This document shows, one piece after another, positions 20,807 to 29,134 of a stretch of 29,734 nt of DNA (position 1 is the first letter of the stretch; each line of letters begins with the position of its first letter). The DNA comes from a virus. Location of the stretch: the IMG/VR virus record IMGVR_UViG_3300044621_002434, positions 1 through 29,734 of that record, one strand, 5' to 3'. The position numbers and the translations under genes are program-made. The notes under the pieces are model-generated. The model was not told where the DNA came from and did no database searches. It saw only the letters and a list, made by a program, of their open reading frames with translations.

Positions 20807-21529
20807 ATGGACGTTTTAGTTGGCAGCACGGGTCTCATTGGACAAGTGCTCCGTGAGGCGCATGAGTTTGGCGCCTGCTTCCATTCCAAAAACATTCACG
20901 AGGCTCCACTGCTTAAGGAGCCCATTGAAAGGCTGTACTTGGCTTGCATGCCAGCGGAGAAATGGAAAGCAAACGCTGCGCCACTGGACGACTTTGACAA
21001 TATGAATAACATCATTCAAAACATCCGACATCTTCCAAGCCCAGCGGAAGTCATTGTTTATTCAACGATTGACGTGCATGGGCAAACAGCGTATTATGCA
21101 GACGGCACGCCTGAAATTTTTGCTATTGACTACGGCACCAATCGCTACATCTTTGAAATGCTCGTGAAGGCGGTATTCCTTGATTCAGTGGTGACAATCA
21201 TTCGCCTTCCTGCATTGTTTCATCGCCTTATTAAGAAGAATATTCTGTTTGATCTATTGACAAACAATAATGTGGAGAAGATCAATGCAAACTCTGCCTA
21301 TCAATGGTATTGTTTAGATGATCTATGGAAGGACACGAAGAAAGCAATTAGTGGCACTACGAACGAATTTTACACAGCTCCCATTGAAACAGCGGAAATC
21401 GTTGAACGCTTCTTCCCTGACGCGAAAGTAGGCAGTGGACCACGCATTGAATACAACATTCCTCCATATAAATATGACAAGGCGAAGATAATGAAGAAGA
21501 TGGAGGCTTTTATCAATGCTTGGAATTAG
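20807..21529 (+). CDS. NAD-dependent epimerase/dehydratase-like protein
   Basis: A 240-residue extended SDR protein. The N-terminal strand and turn MDVLVGSTGLIGQ (G-x-x-G-x-x-G) binds NAD(P). The active-site neighbourhood is YSTIDVHGQ and DYGTNRYIFE, where the usual Y-x-x-x-K has Arg in place of Lys, which would weaken catalysis or reflect a variant. Such enzymes alter nucleotide sugars. It starts 1 nt after the MuF-like gene and overlaps the next by 14 nt; it opens a carbohydrate gene block. Confidence 0.75.
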   Translation: MDVLVGSTGLIGQVLREAHEFGACFHSKNIHEAPLLKEPIERLYLACMPAEKWKANAAPLDDFDNMNNIIQNIRHLPSPAEVIVYSTIDVHGQTAYYADGTPEIFAIDYGTNRYIFEMLVKAVFLDSVVTIIRLPALFHRLIKKNILFDLLTNNNVEKINANSAYQWYCLDDLWKDTKKAISGTTNEFYTAPIETAEIVERFFPDAKVGSGPRIEYNIPPYKYDKAKIMKKMEAFINAWN

Positions 21530-22256
21530 CGCTATCGGCTGGAAGGATGAAGAGGAGGAGCAGATTTTAAGCGCAAATGCTGGAGCGTTTAATGTGCTAG
21601 AAATTATTCCTGCGCGTATCTTTGCTCAAAACAAAGACTATGCCGATATTGCCAAAGAATACCGCGAAAGCTATGGGCTATGGGCCTATTCGGCGCAGGC
21701 TTTATTCTTTCAAAGTAACGTGCAAAGCTTTGAAGACACTGCAGCAGTGTCCGAGCATTTGTTAAAAGTGATCAGCCTTGGCTCCCTCATGGGAATCAAG
21801 CGCTTCGTACTAGGTAGCCCCGGCTTGAGAAAGGGAAGTCCTTCCTGTTTGATGAATGTTCTGAAGCGCATGGATGCAGTGTTGGATGCAAATGGAGCCA
21901 TTCTTTGCATTGAGCCTGTAGCGAAATGCTACGGAGGCTCTTATTTCTTCACAGTCAACGAGATTGTCAATCACATTGATTTTTGCAATTTGAAGAATGT
22001 TAAGACGATGCTTGACACGAATAACGCTTGGCTTCAAGGCGATAGCCCTAAAAAGCTACTGAATCATTATTGGCCATACATTGCTCACGTGCATATCAGC
22101 GACACTGACAATGGACCGCTGCTAAATAAATACGAGCACAGGCAAATTAAGGGAATGCTTGATGGTATTAACTACGAGGGCGCGATTGTGCGCGAGCTAT
22201 TTCAAGCCAAGAAGAATATGCGCGACTATCCGCTGTTCCGCAGCATTTACGCTTGA
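21516..22256 (+). CDS. Sugar isomerase/epimerase, TIM barrel (xylose isomerase-like)
   Basis: 246 residues in the order of AP endonuclease family 2 / sugar phosphate isomerase proteins: an N-terminal LGISAIGW, GAILCIEPVAKCYGG (the E of the first metal ligand), VKTMLDTNNAW (D-x-x-N-x), and YIAHVHISDTDNG (H-x-H-x-x-D). The metal-ligand positions E, D, H, D are visible. A sugar substrate is likely from its neighbours. It begins inside the SDR gene and ends 10 nt into the minus-strand FAD oxidoreductase (tail-to-tail overlap). Confidence 0.7.
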   Translation: MLGISAIGWKDEEEEQILSANAGAFNVLEIIPARIFAQNKDYADIAKEYRESYGLWAYSAQALFFQSNVQSFEDTAAVSEHLLKVISLGSLMGIKRFVLGSPGLRKGSPSCLMNVLKRMDAVLDANGAILCIEPVAKCYGGSYFFTVNEIVNHIDFCNLKNVKTMLDTNNAWLQGDSPKKLLNHYWPYIAHVHISDTDNGPLLNKYEHRQIKGMLDGINYEGAIVRELFQAKKNMRDYPLFRSIYA

Positions 22257-23224
22257 AACATGGCTTCTTTTGCCATCTCTTCGATGGCATAGATGCCTTG
22301 AATTTTGCCAGTGTAAAAAGACAGCAGATTATCCTGTTGCCTAAAAATGGGAACGCGTTGAGCGCTGGCGTTTTTGCATTTTGCTTTAATTGATACCACA
22401 AGGAATGCGTATTTAAAATAATCATGAAACTCGGACCAGTAGCGCACCACGTGATCCTCGATTAGCTGGCGCTTTTCCTTCAGTTGACCATAATTTTTGC
22501 TGAAACAATTTGTTTCTTTTTGCTCAATAACGCCAAGCTTCACATGACTCAGCGAGAACATTGAAGATCCGTATGGATAGATGGAGAACAGCTCGCCATC
22601 AATAAAAGTGAGTGCGCCGAATGGGGGCGTTTTGATGGGACGATAAACAAACATTGCCACTGCCTCAAAATAGTCCCCATCAAGAATTGGCAGCAAGGAA
22701 TTGTTTGTGCAATCAATGACGAAATCATAATCTTGCTTCAAAAAAGCAAGTGAATTGTCATTGATTTCATCCCTTCTCGCAATGGGAGCCAATAGCTCAT
22801 CAAAGTAATTGCCAGCGGCAGTTGGAGAAATATATTTCTCAATGGTATGTAGAAGCAGTGAGGAACGATTAAGGAAGTTCGCATCGGCTTCCGCGTGTGG
22901 CCAATCTTTAAAAATAAGGCGAATCGTTTCTGCGTCCAACAAGCTTTCGTCTTCTGACACTGCATAGAAATTATTCTGCACGTTTTCCGTTAGATGGCCA
23001 TAGTCCATCATGAACTGTTCAAACGTATTCCTGCACAACATGCGCGTGGCATGATTCCTGGCGTAGTGATAGCCATAGTGCAATCGGTTCTGATTGATTA
23101 ACGATGCTTCGGAGATGAGCATTTCATTGCGCTCAAACAAAGTCACATCGGCTTTGTTCATCAAGCGTGAAGCTAAATGGCACCCCGTCCAGCCACCACC
23201 GACGATTGCAATCTTAAGCGCCAT
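22247..23224 (-). CDS. FAD-dependent oxidoreductase (DAO-like)
   Basis: 325 residues, on the minus strand. The N-terminal MALKIAIVGGGWTGCHLASRLMNKADVTLFERN gives the Rossmann FAD motif (G-x-G-x-x-G then E). The motif NQNRLHYGYHYARN is typical of FAD proteins in bacterial surface-sugar clusters. Residues FVIDCTN mark the second FAD contact. The exact reaction (for example a mutase or sugar oxidation) cannot be told. Its start overlaps the stop of the next minus-strand gene (ATGA). It is the distal gene of a two-gene minus-strand operon. Confidence 0.75.
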   Translation of the reverse strand: MALKIAIVGGGWTGCHLASRLMNKADVTLFERNEMLISEASLINQNRLHYGYHYARNHATRMLCRNTFEQFMMDYGHLTENVQNNFYAVSEDESLLDAETIRLIFKDWPHAEADANFLNRSSLLLHTIEKYISPTAAGNYFDELLAPIARRDEINDNSLAFLKQDYDFVIDCTNNSLLPILDGDYFEAVAMFVYRPIKTPPFGALTFIDGELFSIYPYGSSMFSLSHVKLGVIEQKETNCFSKNYGQLKEKRQLIEDHVVRYWSEFHDYFKYAFLVVSIKAKCKNASAQRVPIFRQQDNLLSFYTGKIQGIYAIEEMAKEAMFQA

Positions 23225-23913
23225 CAAATGTCAATGCAAAGCGTTGGCTGCACTCCTTGCCAATTTGACTTGGCCTTGAATAAGTCCAACTGTGGGAAGT
23301 ATTCTATGCGGCGAGGCATGCCGGTTCCATAGACATCAGCATGCCCTTGATAGTTCCATTCATCTGGGCCATGCTTGTTTGGGTGGTAAAGGCCAGTAGG
23401 TGAATCCTGCAGTTTCCAGAGCATGTAGTCCTCGTTAGGCACTCCCCATTGTTTCCATGCTTGCAACGCCTGTGGTGAGCTGTCCATGTTCTTAATCGCC
23501 ATGAGACGGTCCTTATGGTGCATGAGGTAGTCCATGCTGTAAAGGCCAATGCTCATTGATGGTGTATGTTTCATCGCCACCTTCTCAAAACCTTCTGGAG
23601 GGTCGTAGGCAAGGCTTTTGAAGGCAGGCCCAGCAATGCAAGTGTCGTGAAGGAGAAACCAGAAGGGGCTTGTCAGATGGTGTTCAACAATTTCAATGAG
23701 GGGCGCGTATTCAAAAGAGTTTTGCGGAGTGCAAATCATCGGCACATCGCCATAATGGTCAATTTGCCAATTCTCTTGACCCCCATTGACGATCAAGATT
23801 TCGTCAGTACTGATACCTGCACGAGTGAGAGAAGGGATAATTACAGGCAGCGTATGAACAGCAAATTTATTACAGGTGCTAATGCAGAAGCGCACAGAAG
23901 ACGGTGGCAACAT
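23224..23913 (-). CDS. Glycosyltransferase-like protein (229 aa), GT-A type
   Basis: The N-terminus SSVRFCISTCNKFAVHTLPVIIPSL, then ILIVNGG, is the strand-helix-strand of a GT-A nucleotide-sugar fold; WFLLHDTC follows where these proteins carry a metal-binding Asp-containing strand. No typical DxD is present; HD is the nearest. The start is set by AAGGAG (7 nt before ATG 23913). It is the first gene of the minus operon; a TATACT promoter lies at 23934-23939. Function in carbohydrate transfer is inferred from fold and neighbours. Confidence 0.55.
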   Translation of the reverse strand: MLPPSSVRFCISTCNKFAVHTLPVIIPSLTRAGISTDEILIVNGGQENWQIDHYGDVPMICTPQNSFEYAPLIEIVEHHLTSPFWFLLHDTCIAGPAFKSLAYDPPEGFEKVAMKHTPSMSIGLYSMDYLMHHKDRLMAIKNMDSSPQALQAWKQWGVPNEDYMLWKLQDSPTGLYHPNKHGPDEWNYQGHADVYGTGMPRRIEYFPQLDLFKAKSNWQGVQPTLCIDI

Positions 23914-23933
23914 GACTTTCTCCTTGTGCCGTC

Positions 23934-23939
23934 AGTATA
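23934..23939 (-). promoter_or_regulatory. Minus-strand -10 (TATACT)
   Basis: TATACT on the minus strand lies 21 nt before ATG 23913 of the glycosyltransferase-like gene, in the 62-nt divergent gap. Confidence 0.45.
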
Positions 23940-23948
23940 GAAGCTGCT

Positions 23949-23954
23949 TATGAT
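23949..23954 (+). promoter_or_regulatory. Plus-strand -10 (TATGAT)
   Basis: TATGAT lies 21 nt before ATG 23976. Together with the minus -10 it makes a compact divergent promoter pair. Confidence 0.4.
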
Positions 23955-23975
23955 GACGAAGATTCCAAGAGAAAC

Positions 23976-25199
23976 ATGGCAAAAATTCTCTACGCTGGCG
24001 ACGCATTTGTAGAAACGGGATTTGGGCGAGTGGCCCAATACCTGTTACCTGCTCTGGATGAGAAGCATGAAGTGGTGGTGATGAGCACGAACTACCACGG
24101 TGACCCTCATCCCGAGGCGAAGAAATATAAGGTGTATCCAGCCATGCTGCATGGATCCGATCCGTTTGGGTCGCATCGCATTTCTGAAATCATTCAGAAG
24201 GAAAAACCTGATCTGGTATGGGTGACAAATGATATTTGGGTGGCGCTTACTTTATGGGACAGGGCGAAGCCATTCAAGGAGCAAATTGGGTTTAAATGGT
24301 TTGTTTACACTCCCATTGATTCCTATGGTTTATTTCCTGAGTTAAACGCGAAGATGCAAGAATGGGATGGTCTCGCCACCTATACGCTATTCGCAAATAA
24401 CGAATTAATTCGCATGGGTTATGACAAGACAGTTGACATCATCGGCCACGGCACTGATTTTGAAAAATTCTTTCCACTTGACAAGCAGCAATGTCGTCAA
24501 GAACTTGGCGTGCCGCAAGACGCATTTATCGTCTTCAACGGCAACAGGAATCAACCGAGAAAGCGCATTGACCTTACGCTGAAAGCTTTTGTTAAGTTCG
24601 CCAAAGATAAAGACGACGCTCGCCTGTGGTTAAACATGGGCAGCAAAGACTTGGGATGGGACATTATCCCGTTGTTCAAGCGAATTGCTCGCGACGAGGA
24701 GCTTGATCCTACTGGCAAGCTTATTCTTACTAGTCCTCATTTTTCCACTGATAATTGTTTGCCAGTGGAGCAACTGAACAAAGTATACAATGCGGTTGAT
24801 GTGGGCATCAATACTTGCATTGGTGAGGGTTGGGGCTTGGTCAATACTGAACATGGCTCCGTTGGCGTGGCGCAAGTTGTTCCCGACCATACAAGCTTGG
24901 CTGAAATTTTTGACGAACTGCCACGCATTACTTGCAACGCCTCTGAGACTGACCGCAATTATGGTCTTGAGCGTCTGCTTCCTGATCCCGAGAGTGCTGC
25001 AGAAATCTTGTCGTATTACTACGAAAACCGCAATGCACTGAAGAAAGACGGGCAATGGTGCTACAAGCGTTTGCATGAAGAGCCATTTACTTGGCCGTAT
25101 ATTCAGCGGCAGTTGCTTGGCGTGGTAGAACGCACTCTCAATGCAAAGGCCGCTGAGCCCGAATTTAAAGGCTTTGGCACTCCCGCAAAAATTGCTTGA
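23976..25199 (+). CDS. Family 4-type glycosyltransferase (GT-B)
   Basis: 407 residues. The N-terminal part (MAKILYAGDAFVETGFGRVAQYLLPAL) resembles GT-B donor/acceptor lobes with a loose Gly-rich loop. The C-terminal lobe has the GT4 motif block: NGNRNQPRKRIDLTLKAFVKF, then GEGWGLVNTEHGSVGVAQVVPDHTS (E-x7-E type, where E286-like Glu contact the nucleotide sugar). It transfers a sugar, probably to a cell-surface or virion glycan. It is the first plus-strand gene after the divergent promoter; the next gene starts 2 nt after its stop. Confidence 0.85.
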   Translation: MAKILYAGDAFVETGFGRVAQYLLPALDEKHEVVVMSTNYHGDPHPEAKKYKVYPAMLHGSDPFGSHRISEIIQKEKPDLVWVTNDIWVALTLWDRAKPFKEQIGFKWFVYTPIDSYGLFPELNAKMQEWDGLATYTLFANNELIRMGYDKTVDIIGHGTDFEKFFPLDKQQCRQELGVPQDAFIVFNGNRNQPRKRIDLTLKAFVKFAKDKDDARLWLNMGSKDLGWDIIPLFKRIARDEELDPTGKLILTSPHFSTDNCLPVEQLNKVYNAVDVGINTCIGEGWGLVNTEHGSVGVAQVVPDHTSLAEIFDELPRITCNASETDRNYGLERLLPDPESAAEILSYYYENRNALKKDGQWCYKRLHEEPFTWPYIQRQLLGVVERTLNAKAAEPEFKGFGTPAKIA

Positions 25200-25201
25200 T
25201 C

Positions 25202-25918
25202 ATGCAAATTTCACAAATCTTCCTTTCAACTGATCCGTCAGAAGCGCTTAGCCCTTTTCTAAAGCACGCTACGGGAACTATTGACGCATGCTTTTCCGAG
25301 GCGAAGCATGTTATTTACAACAGCGACTCACTTCGCGCCTTCATTGCTGATAACTATGAAGAAGAAGTGTTGTGGGCTTACGACACGCTCAAACCGTTTT
25401 CTTACAAAGCAGATCTTGGTCGTTTCTGCTTGCTAAACAAGCTTGGTGGCTGGTATTTTGATATTGGCGTGAGGGCTTTTAATGCAGTGGAGCTTGGTGA
25501 GCGCATCAAGTTTCTTGCCTTCCGCGACATTCAGCGTTTTAGCTATACAAGCTGGGCATGCGCTACGACAGTGCTTTATTCTCAGCCCGATAATCCTGCG
25601 TTGCAAACTGCCATTGAAATGATTGTGGCAAATTGCGTGCAACAATACTATGGCATCACTCCATTGTGTCCTACTGGCCCCACGCTGCTTGGTAAAGCTT
25701 TGGCAGCGAATGGAAGCCAAGCTGATTTTATTTATGGAGACTATCTTGAACTGACGCCCACTCACGGCCAAAAGAATAGGGCTTTCGTTCTGCCTGATGG
25801 CACGATCATGGCATGGAGTAAGCCTGCTGGCGGTGGCGATTTGACGGGACTTGGCGCTAAAGGCGTCAACAATTACAATGAGCTGTGGCAAGCTCGCAAG
25901 GTGTATGGCGATGATTGA
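25202..25918 (+). CDS. Gly_transf_sug (GT32-like) glycosyltransferase
   Basis: 238 residues. The key GT32-like segment is SYKADLGRFCLLNKLGGWYFDIGV (D71 and D87 positions). The usual D-x-D is D-I-G here, so the second Asp is missing. The C-terminus (ITPLCPTGPTLLGKAL) fits the family's acceptor region. ATG 25202 is chosen over a TTG 6 nt before it. The last codons overlap the next gene by 14 nt. Confidence 0.75.
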   Translation: MQISQIFLSTDPSEALSPFLKHATGTIDACFSEAKHVIYNSDSLRAFIADNYEEEVLWAYDTLKPFSYKADLGRFCLLNKLGGWYFDIGVRAFNAVELGERIKFLAFRDIQRFSYTSWACATTVLYSQPDNPALQTAIEMIVANCVQQYYGITPLCPTGPTLLGKALAANGSQADFIYGDYLELTPTHGQKNRAFVLPDGTIMAWSKPAGGGDLTGLGAKGVNNYNELWQARKVYGDD

Positions 25919-27566: not shown

Positions 27567-27595
27567 TTTCTTAATAAGCGCTTTTTATTGAGAAA
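27567..27595. terminator. Bidirectional terminator between convergent genes
   Basis: An 11-bp arm pair (TTTCTTAATAA with TTATTGAGAAA, one G-U) with a 7-nt loop. It is AT-rich, gives U-rich 3' ends in both directions, and sits in the gap between the plus gene and the minus repressor. Confidence 0.55.
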
Positions 27596-27596
27596 G

Positions 27597-27872
27597 CTAA
27601 TTGATCTTTGCAATGAATGATGGGTAGCCCATCAGCCACAGCACACTAATCCCATAGAGACCGCTGAGCGTGCGAATTTGTACGCAATCTGGCGGGGCTG
27701 TGCCTTTTTCAATGCGGCAATAAGAGCTTTGACTGATGTGAAGTTCTTTTGCTACGTCATGTTGCGTGAGTCCAGCATTAAGCCGAGCCTCCTTAATGCG
27801 GCTTGCAATAAGAATACGAGCTTCTTGGTGGGGAAGTTTAAGAGCATCCGTCGTGCTACGTGCCAAAAACAT
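27597..27872 (-). CDS. Cro/CI-type (XRE) transcription repressor (91 aa)
   Basis: A helix-turn-helix of the XRE family is plain at residues ~25-75: RIKEARLNAGLTQHDVAKELHISQSSYCRIEKGTAPPDCVQIRTLSGLYGISVLWLMG. The N-terminal ~20 residues (MFLARSTTDALKLPHQEARI) are extra. Start ATG 27872 is preferred to the GTG at 27875. A protein of this kind is usually a repressor in a lysogeny or maintenance switch, which is unexpected inside a head gene cluster. Its promoter and operator candidates lie in the next 60 nt. Confidence 0.85.
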   Translation of the reverse strand: MFLARSTTDALKLPHQEARILIASRIKEARLNAGLTQHDVAKELHISQSSYCRIEKGTAPPDCVQIRTLSGLYGISVLWLMGYPSFIAKIN

Positions 27873-27903
27873 CACGATGATTTATTCCGTTTTGCATAAG
27901 CCT

Positions 27904-27936
27904 ATAAAGTATAACATTCGCTTCTTGATAAAGTAT
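27904..27936. promoter_or_regulatory. Paired direct repeats ATAAAGTAT: repressor operator candidate
   Basis: ATAAAGTAT occurs at 27904-27912 and 27928-27936 (24 nt apart, about two and a third helix turns). The first overlaps a minus-strand extended -10 (TGTTATACT, complement 27908-27916) for the repressor gene. The second overlaps the first bases of the scaffold gene's ATG (27935). Binding there could repress both genes. Confidence 0.5.
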
Positions 27937-29134
27937 GAATATGAGCACCATTTCTTGCCGATACGATTTCTCTCCTATTGAGAAATACGAACTCACGCCA
28001 GAAGGTTATCTTCGGGCATGGGCTTCAATCGCACGCACTGGCATCCAACACTACACAGATAGTGATGGCTCCATTCGTCGCGAATATCGTCCTGAAACAG
28101 AAGTGGCGTCTCCCGATAGTCTTGCTTCATTCGCGGGCAAGGCAATCACTTCTGAGCATCCGCCTGTACTGCTCGATTCTGAGAATACTAAGGACTACCA
28201 AGTAGGCTTTAGTGGTACTGAAGTGGTGTACGACAATGGTTTTGTCAAGGCAGTGATGACAATCACTGACGAAGACACCATCAAGCGCATCATGAAAGGA
28301 GATGCTCGTGAGGTAAGCGCGGGCTATAGGGTGAATTATGATCCCACGCCTGGCGTTACAGAAAACGGTGAACATTACGATGGCATCCAAAAGGAAATCA
28401 TCGGCAATCACATCGCTGTTGTTCGTCGGGGCCGCGCTGGCCCGCAAGTGAAGCTTCATCTTGATAGGCAAGATGCTGCTGACCCATCATTGATCTCTAA
28501 TGGAGGAGACCATCTCATGACGGCAAAAGTCGTTTTTGATGGCGCCGAGTTCGAGGTGACTGAGAGCGTTGCTCTTGCAATCACCAAAGAACGCGAAGAC
28601 GCCAAAATGTCCTACGAGGACATGAAACAAAAGTACGATGAAATGATGTCCAAAGCTTCCAAAATGAAGGAAGAGATGGACGCCATGGAAAAGGAAATGC
28701 AAGGCAAGTGCGATTCCGCTGAGGGTCGTGCTGACGCCCTGGCTGAGCAGGTGGAAGAGCTGAAAGGCGAACTTGCTGCTGCTCAAGAAATCAACCTTGA
28801 TTCCATGGTTGAAGAGCGCGTGGCTCTCATTGAGAAAGCCAAGCCTGTCCTGGATTCTGCTTATGAATTTGCTGGCAAAACTGCCCGCGAAGTGATGGTT
28901 GATTCCATCAAAGCAGTGCGTGGTGACGAGCTTGATCTTTCTGAGAAGAGCGATGACTACGTGCAGGCAATGTTCGACACTCTTTCCGAAGGTCGTTCTG
29001 ACTCTGCCACCACTGACGAGCTGCGTAAAGCCGTAGCTTCCATTGCTTCTCCTGTTTCTGCACCCTCTGCCTATATGGATATGCTGCAGAATGCATGGAA
29101 GAAGCCCCTTTCCATCTCCAAGGAGGCTAAGTAA
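27935..29134 (+). CDS. Prohead protease/scaffold-like protein (DUF2213)
   Basis: A 399-residue protein. The N-terminal half (1-175) matches DUF2213, seen next to portal and capsid genes: YELTPEGYLRAWASIARTG, FAGKAITSEHPP, VSAGYRVNYDP, and HIAVVRRGRAGP. The second half is coiled-coil (residues ~210-275, MKQKYDEMMSKASKMKEEMDAMEKEM), then a helix-rich Ser/Ala end. This split (protease domain plus scaffold) matches proteins that shape and then mature the prohead. ATG 27935 is used; ATG 27941 is the alternative. The next gene starts 2 nt after the stop. Confidence 0.75.
   Translation: MNMSTISCRYDFSPIEKYELTPEGYLRAWASIARTGIQHYTDSDGSIRREYRPETEVASPDSLASFAGKAITSEHPPVLLDSENTKDYQVGFSGTEVVYDNGFVKAVMTITDEDTIKRIMKGDAREVSAGYRVNYDPTPGVTENGEHYDGIQKEIIGNHIAVVRRGRAGPQVKLHLDRQDAADPSLISNGGDHLMTAKVVFDGAEFEVTESVALAITKEREDAKMSYEDMKQKYDEMMSKASKMKEEMDAMEKEMQGKCDSAEGRADALAEQVEELKGELAAAQEINLDSMVEERVALIEKAKPVLDSAYEFAGKTAREVMVDSIKAVRGDELDLSEKSDDYVQAMFDTLSEGRSDSATTDELRKAVASIASPVSAPSAYMDMLQNAWKKPLSISKEAK

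Follow-up and report, generated by a model that had tools for sequence, protein, structure and literature searches.

A conserved XRE-type regulator gene divergent from the head maturation protease gene of Synechococcus siphophages, a candidate autoregulated switch beside a capsid-gene promoter

The virus record analyzed here (the window; 29.7 kb) covers part of the genome of an S-CBS4-like Synechococcus siphophage; its head-gene region resembles that of Synechococcus phage S-CBS4, with a protease that is 78% identical and a like gene order (terminase, portal, variable sugar genes, small genes, XRE, protease, cement protein, and major head protein). The XRE and DUF2213 protease genes form a divergent pair, with the protease heading the capsid-gene run (Table 1). 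An earlier note on this DNA had described a Cro/CI-like XRE repressor gene among head genes, beside a DUF2213 gene; Pfam matches to HTH_3 and PF09979 confirm a minus-strand XRE/HTH_3 ORF divergent from a DUF2213 gene; the DUF2213 gene, which the note called a scaffold gene, belongs to a family of head maturation proteases, and a scaffold-like C-terminal half of this protease is possible. The second ATG of the protease gene (27941) is the conserved start, while the first (27935) is missing from most relatives. In S-CBS4 (NC_016766.1, L002), the annotated head protease start (14239) lies 17 codons 3′ of an ATG (14188) that is conserved in relatives; by this comparison, the S-CBS4 start is probably misannotated. 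Upstream of XRE, positions 20807–25918 of the window contain sugar-metabolism, FAD-dependent, and glycosyltransferase-like ORFs; the set found there in S-CBS4 differs.

Table 1. Features at the XRE/protease locus (window coordinates).
Feature	Position	Strand	Remarks
A/T-rich hairpin	27567–27595		between convergent XRE and upstream gene; window clade
XRE/HTH_3 regulator gene	27597–27872	minus	91 aa from ATG 27872
Candidate operator palindrome TTATTC-CGTTTT-GCATAA	27882–27899		top of palindrome scan
Left ATAAAGTAT copy	27904–27912	plus	exact in only 13/92 spacers
XRE extended -10 box TGT-TATACT	27908–27916	minus	predicted start point about 27901, beside candidate operator
Protease extended -10 box TGA-TAAAGT	27926–27934	plus	6 nt before ATG 27941
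DUF2213 head maturation protease gene	27941–29134	plus	PF09979, 4.7e-44; PHROG 530, 1.6e-103

XRE is a small single-domain DNA-binding regulator of Synechococcus-type viruses. Both a profile match above the curated cut-off (Pfam HTH_3, 2.8e-10; 40.5 bits vs. a cut-off of 23) and a helical HTH fold place it in the XRE/HTH_3 family; the AlphaFold2 model (pLDDT 88.3) presents five helices, and its best fold matches are restriction-modification (R-M) controller proteins, ImmR, and the lambda and 434 repressors, with weak E-values, as is typical of small HTH domains. By sequence, the closest solved relative is ImmR of ICEBs1 (3.2e-07). The protein consists of a single HTH_3 domain with short tails and has no C-terminal oligomerisation/self-cleavage domain; residues 48–55 (QSSYCRIE) form the recognition helix, and an in-frame GTG at 27875 represents a possible alternative start. 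Purifying selection on XRE is strong (median dN/dS of about 0.01–0.07 within clades), and 12 of 13 large records contain no other HTH_3 match over the cut-off.

XRE was found divergent to the protease in all 227 loci with sufficient upstream DNA, and the pair was also present in 66 further, more distant loci (partly overlapping the 227). The protease is the XRE neighbor in all of these loci, and the neighbors in S-CBS4 are head genes. No relative examined lacked XRE, even at an XRE identity of about 50%; beside the distant DUF2213 proteases of four phages inspected, it was absent. The direct homologue in S-CBS4, gp021 (annotated as a transcriptional repressor; 49% identity), is likewise located beside the protease and differs from the window XRE in its recognition helix and operator half-sites; the literature searched gives no operator or function for gp021. 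One contig filed in a Rhodobiaceae MAG (NYTN01000090.1, L283), which is also in IMG/VR, carries the XRE/protease pair and is probably misbinned and of cyanophage origin.

The spacer between the two genes was compared across 92 distinct 76-nt stretches 5′ of the protease ATG. A palindrome scan (arm lengths 4–6, gaps 4–12, all offsets; three clades) returned its most symmetric shared feature at -58 to -43, extended to -59 to -42, and this palindrome (27882–27899 in the window) is the strongest symmetric spacer feature in all clades. Its center lies at -50.5 from the protease ATG in 85 of the 92 sequences and is shifted by 2 bp in five, which also have a second palindrome downstream; no clear operator was seen in L344 and L351. 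A fourth clade, found later, presents another palindrome, TGTTTC-N6-GGAACA, at exactly the same offset. Half-site class tracks recognition-helix class, with three classes each: SQSSY helices pair with TAKTC/GMATA half-sites, [DN]QATIS or [DN]QATVS helices with ATGC/GCAT, and GA[AS]TYC helices with TGTTTC/GGAACA, a co-variation made up of few independent events. On a score trained on these same sites, whose maxima shuffled genomes sometimes match, the palindrome ranks first genome-wide in 9 of 11 large records, with one slightly better site in each of G002 and G010. Between palindrome and protease, a minus-strand TAnnnT is found at -33 to -28 from the protease ATG (27908–27913 in the window) in 75 of the 92 spacers, and the XRE -10 box is the best -10 match among all minus-strand offsets. 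XRE therefore presents the sequence pattern of an autoregulator, i.e., a conserved palindrome beside its own predicted start point that co-varies with the recognition helix; this palindrome is likely the XRE operator.

A second, rightward -10 box precedes the protease. TAnnnT occurs at -12 to -7, exactly 6 nt before the conserved ATG, in every one of the 92 spacers, and is retained while the rest of the hexamer changes (TAAAGT, TACAGT, TATTTT, and TAGCCT), a pattern that fits a -10 box rather than a Shine-Dalgarno site; the latter was rejected, with TATTTT and TAGCCT substituting in one clade. The TG extension is missing from clade C. A -10 box 6–7 nt before the start codon is the sequence signature of leaderless genes: in Deinococcus-Thermus, experiments support a TANNNT box 6–7 bp upstream of the ORF as a promoter of leaderless genes (PMC12340547), and lambda cI is translated from an mRNA that naturally has no leader (PMC4965119). 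Synthesis of the head maturation protease from a leaderless mRNA is thus probable; read-through from the upstream head genes is another possible source of its transcript. The cement and major head protein genes 3′ of the protease carry strong Shine-Dalgarno sites (GGAGG); such sites are missing from many genes of the window phage, and their absence at the protease therefore says little. Neither predicted promoter was picked up when the region was scanned for consensus promoters, as expected for promoters that have no -35 box. A genome-wide late promoter of the form TGRTAAAGT...ATG was rejected, showing no enrichment elsewhere; together with the rank of the palindrome in the large records, the unrepeated motif makes control look local. 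Explanation by a phage-encoded sigma factor was also rejected, such a factor being present in only 1 of 13 records.

The direct repeats to which the earlier note had assigned an operator role do exist, as two exact copies of ATAAAGTAT (27904–27912 and 27928–27936), but the role itself was rejected because the repeats are not conserved: just 12 of the 92 distinct spacers of relatives have both copies in exact form, and S-CBS4 does not. The window contains no further exact copy; with one mismatch allowed, seven copies were found vs. 4.5 expected, which is near chance. The left copy shares bases with the XRE -10 box, which reads on the other strand, and the right copy overlaps the protease -10 box, so that the two can look alike without being operators. 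The right copy had also been described as covering the first bases of the DUF2213 gene; the ATG that it touches is the unconserved one. The conserved palindrome and the two opposed -10 boxes had gone unnoticed.

The divergent gene pair, the palindrome, the opposed -10 boxes, their fixed spacing, and the helix co-variation can all be read in the sequence. From these, we consider XRE to be probably a local switch under negative autoregulation, with a promoter that overlaps the one for the capsid genes. An XRE dimer would bind the palindrome just 3′ of its own start point and would shut off its own leftward promoter; a start near 27901 puts the candidate operator at about +3 to +20 of the XRE transcript, making autorepression the most direct prediction. 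The XRE promoter overlaps the rightward protease promoter, and RNA polymerase could hardly occupy both, so the two should exclude each other. By filling its operator, XRE would then probably hand the region to the capsid promoter and set its timing, and this handover is the effect on the protease that we prefer to infer. The predicted leaderless protease would be translated on other terms than the cement and capsid genes with their Shine-Dalgarno sites.

This arrangement recalls two known systems. The lambda O_R region (P_RM with leaderless cI; Cro/CI) likewise combines an XRE-type gene, divergent promoters, and palindromic operators between them, and in the lambda record cI, like the window protease, has an extended -10 box (TGA-TAGATT) 6 nt before its ATG. 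However, lambda has three operators where most lineages here have one, the O_R2 center is at -42 rather than -50.5, and the leaderless gene is the repressor in lambda and, by prediction, the head protease here; XRE also has no C-terminal oligomerisation domain and no early genes nearby, and does not belong with the lambda-type CI proteins. The R-M controller proteins C.BclI, C.AhdI, and C.Csp231I are, like XRE, small single-domain HTH proteins and give the best fold matches, with low sequence identity (15–24%); R-M controllers are autoregulators whose palindromic operators lie within their own promoter and whose transcripts are leaderless (PMC4824078). Unlike these, XRE has no restriction or methylase genes beside it (its neighbor is the head protease) and, in most lineages, a single operator; with no linked restriction endonuclease gene, it falls outside the R-M controllers. 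We tentatively suggest, as a possibility that we hold to be rather doubtful, that cyanosiphophages have put a divergent switch like that of lambda to use outside lysogeny, in which an autoregulated, R-M-controller-like XRE timer first limits itself and then turns on the leaderless protease promoter, so that capsid assembly would be timed and protease dosage kept low relative to capsid protein.

The earlier note's proposal of a switch that holds back capsid production survives best as to the switch, given a pair that is universal in the clade, the purifying selection, and the fixed operator spacing to both promoters. Holding back is the less supported part: in the window lineage, the candidate operator lies 5′ of the protease core promoter and just 3′ of the XRE start point, so self-repression of XRE is better supported. 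Direct repression of the capsid promoter by XRE, with late genes held back until XRE is diluted or removed, is judged unlikely; it would account for the fixed spacing between operator and protease promoter, and it is plausible in the lineage whose spacers carry two palindromes in tandem (L130, L131, L151, L255, and L259), where the second, at about -39 to -22, lies over the protease -35 region. This tandem site is limited to one small lineage, however, and occlusion is improbable in the window lineage, whose only operator is upstream of the protease core promoter.

We consider it quite improbable that XRE is the lysogeny repressor of a temperate phage or, as the earlier note had also offered, a relic of one; XRE conservation argues against decay. 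The fold of XRE is of the CI/Cro type, XRE is the only HTH_3 regulator over the cut-off in most large relatives, and 4 of the 15 large relatives (G003, G004, G006, and G007) have a tyrosine integrase gene, with G003 and G004 being close to the window. Against this, there is one local operator, which adjoins a head gene and is not near early genes; no integrase was found in S-CBS4 or in 11 of the 15 large records, among them the close relatives G002, G010, and G014; the five large records closest to the window comprise two with an integrase and three without; and a scan of 84,980 species genomes with low-sensitivity patterns returned only one short MAG contig. A lysogeny role for XRE is possible in the integrase carriers. 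The integrase genes themselves (L164, L165, L166, and L167) suggest temperate cousins or mobile insertions; that of L165 adjoins a long glycine-rich tail-like ORF.

Less probable still is that XRE is a moron, i.e., transcriptionally autonomous with its own promoter and terminator and unrelated to head-gene control, a suggestion that fits the inverted gene, its own promoter, its absence from the four phages with distant proteases, and the 3′ hairpin, but that is disfavored by the presence of XRE in all relatives examined and by the interlocking of its promoter with the protease promoter at fixed spacing. The hairpin was seen in the window clade and in no other, and is therefore at most a local terminator; a conserved terminator after XRE was rejected.

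Little has been described of how cyanosiphophages control their late genes. For the study of binding specificity, this locus gives a precisely placed candidate operator, a pair of predicted start points, and a natural helix/operator series. If XRE is the autoregulated switch favored here, a CI/Cro-type circuit would serve virion assembly rather than lysogeny. Operator-like sites were also observed away from the spacer: G009, which belongs to the tandem-palindrome lineage, has an extra TATTC-N6-GAATA palindrome far off in the genome (L186:32–47), and a second operator-like site, TATTCAGTGTCGCATA, is located far from the XRE gene in G010 (C1:47294–47309, L198), with a counterpart in the close relative G002.
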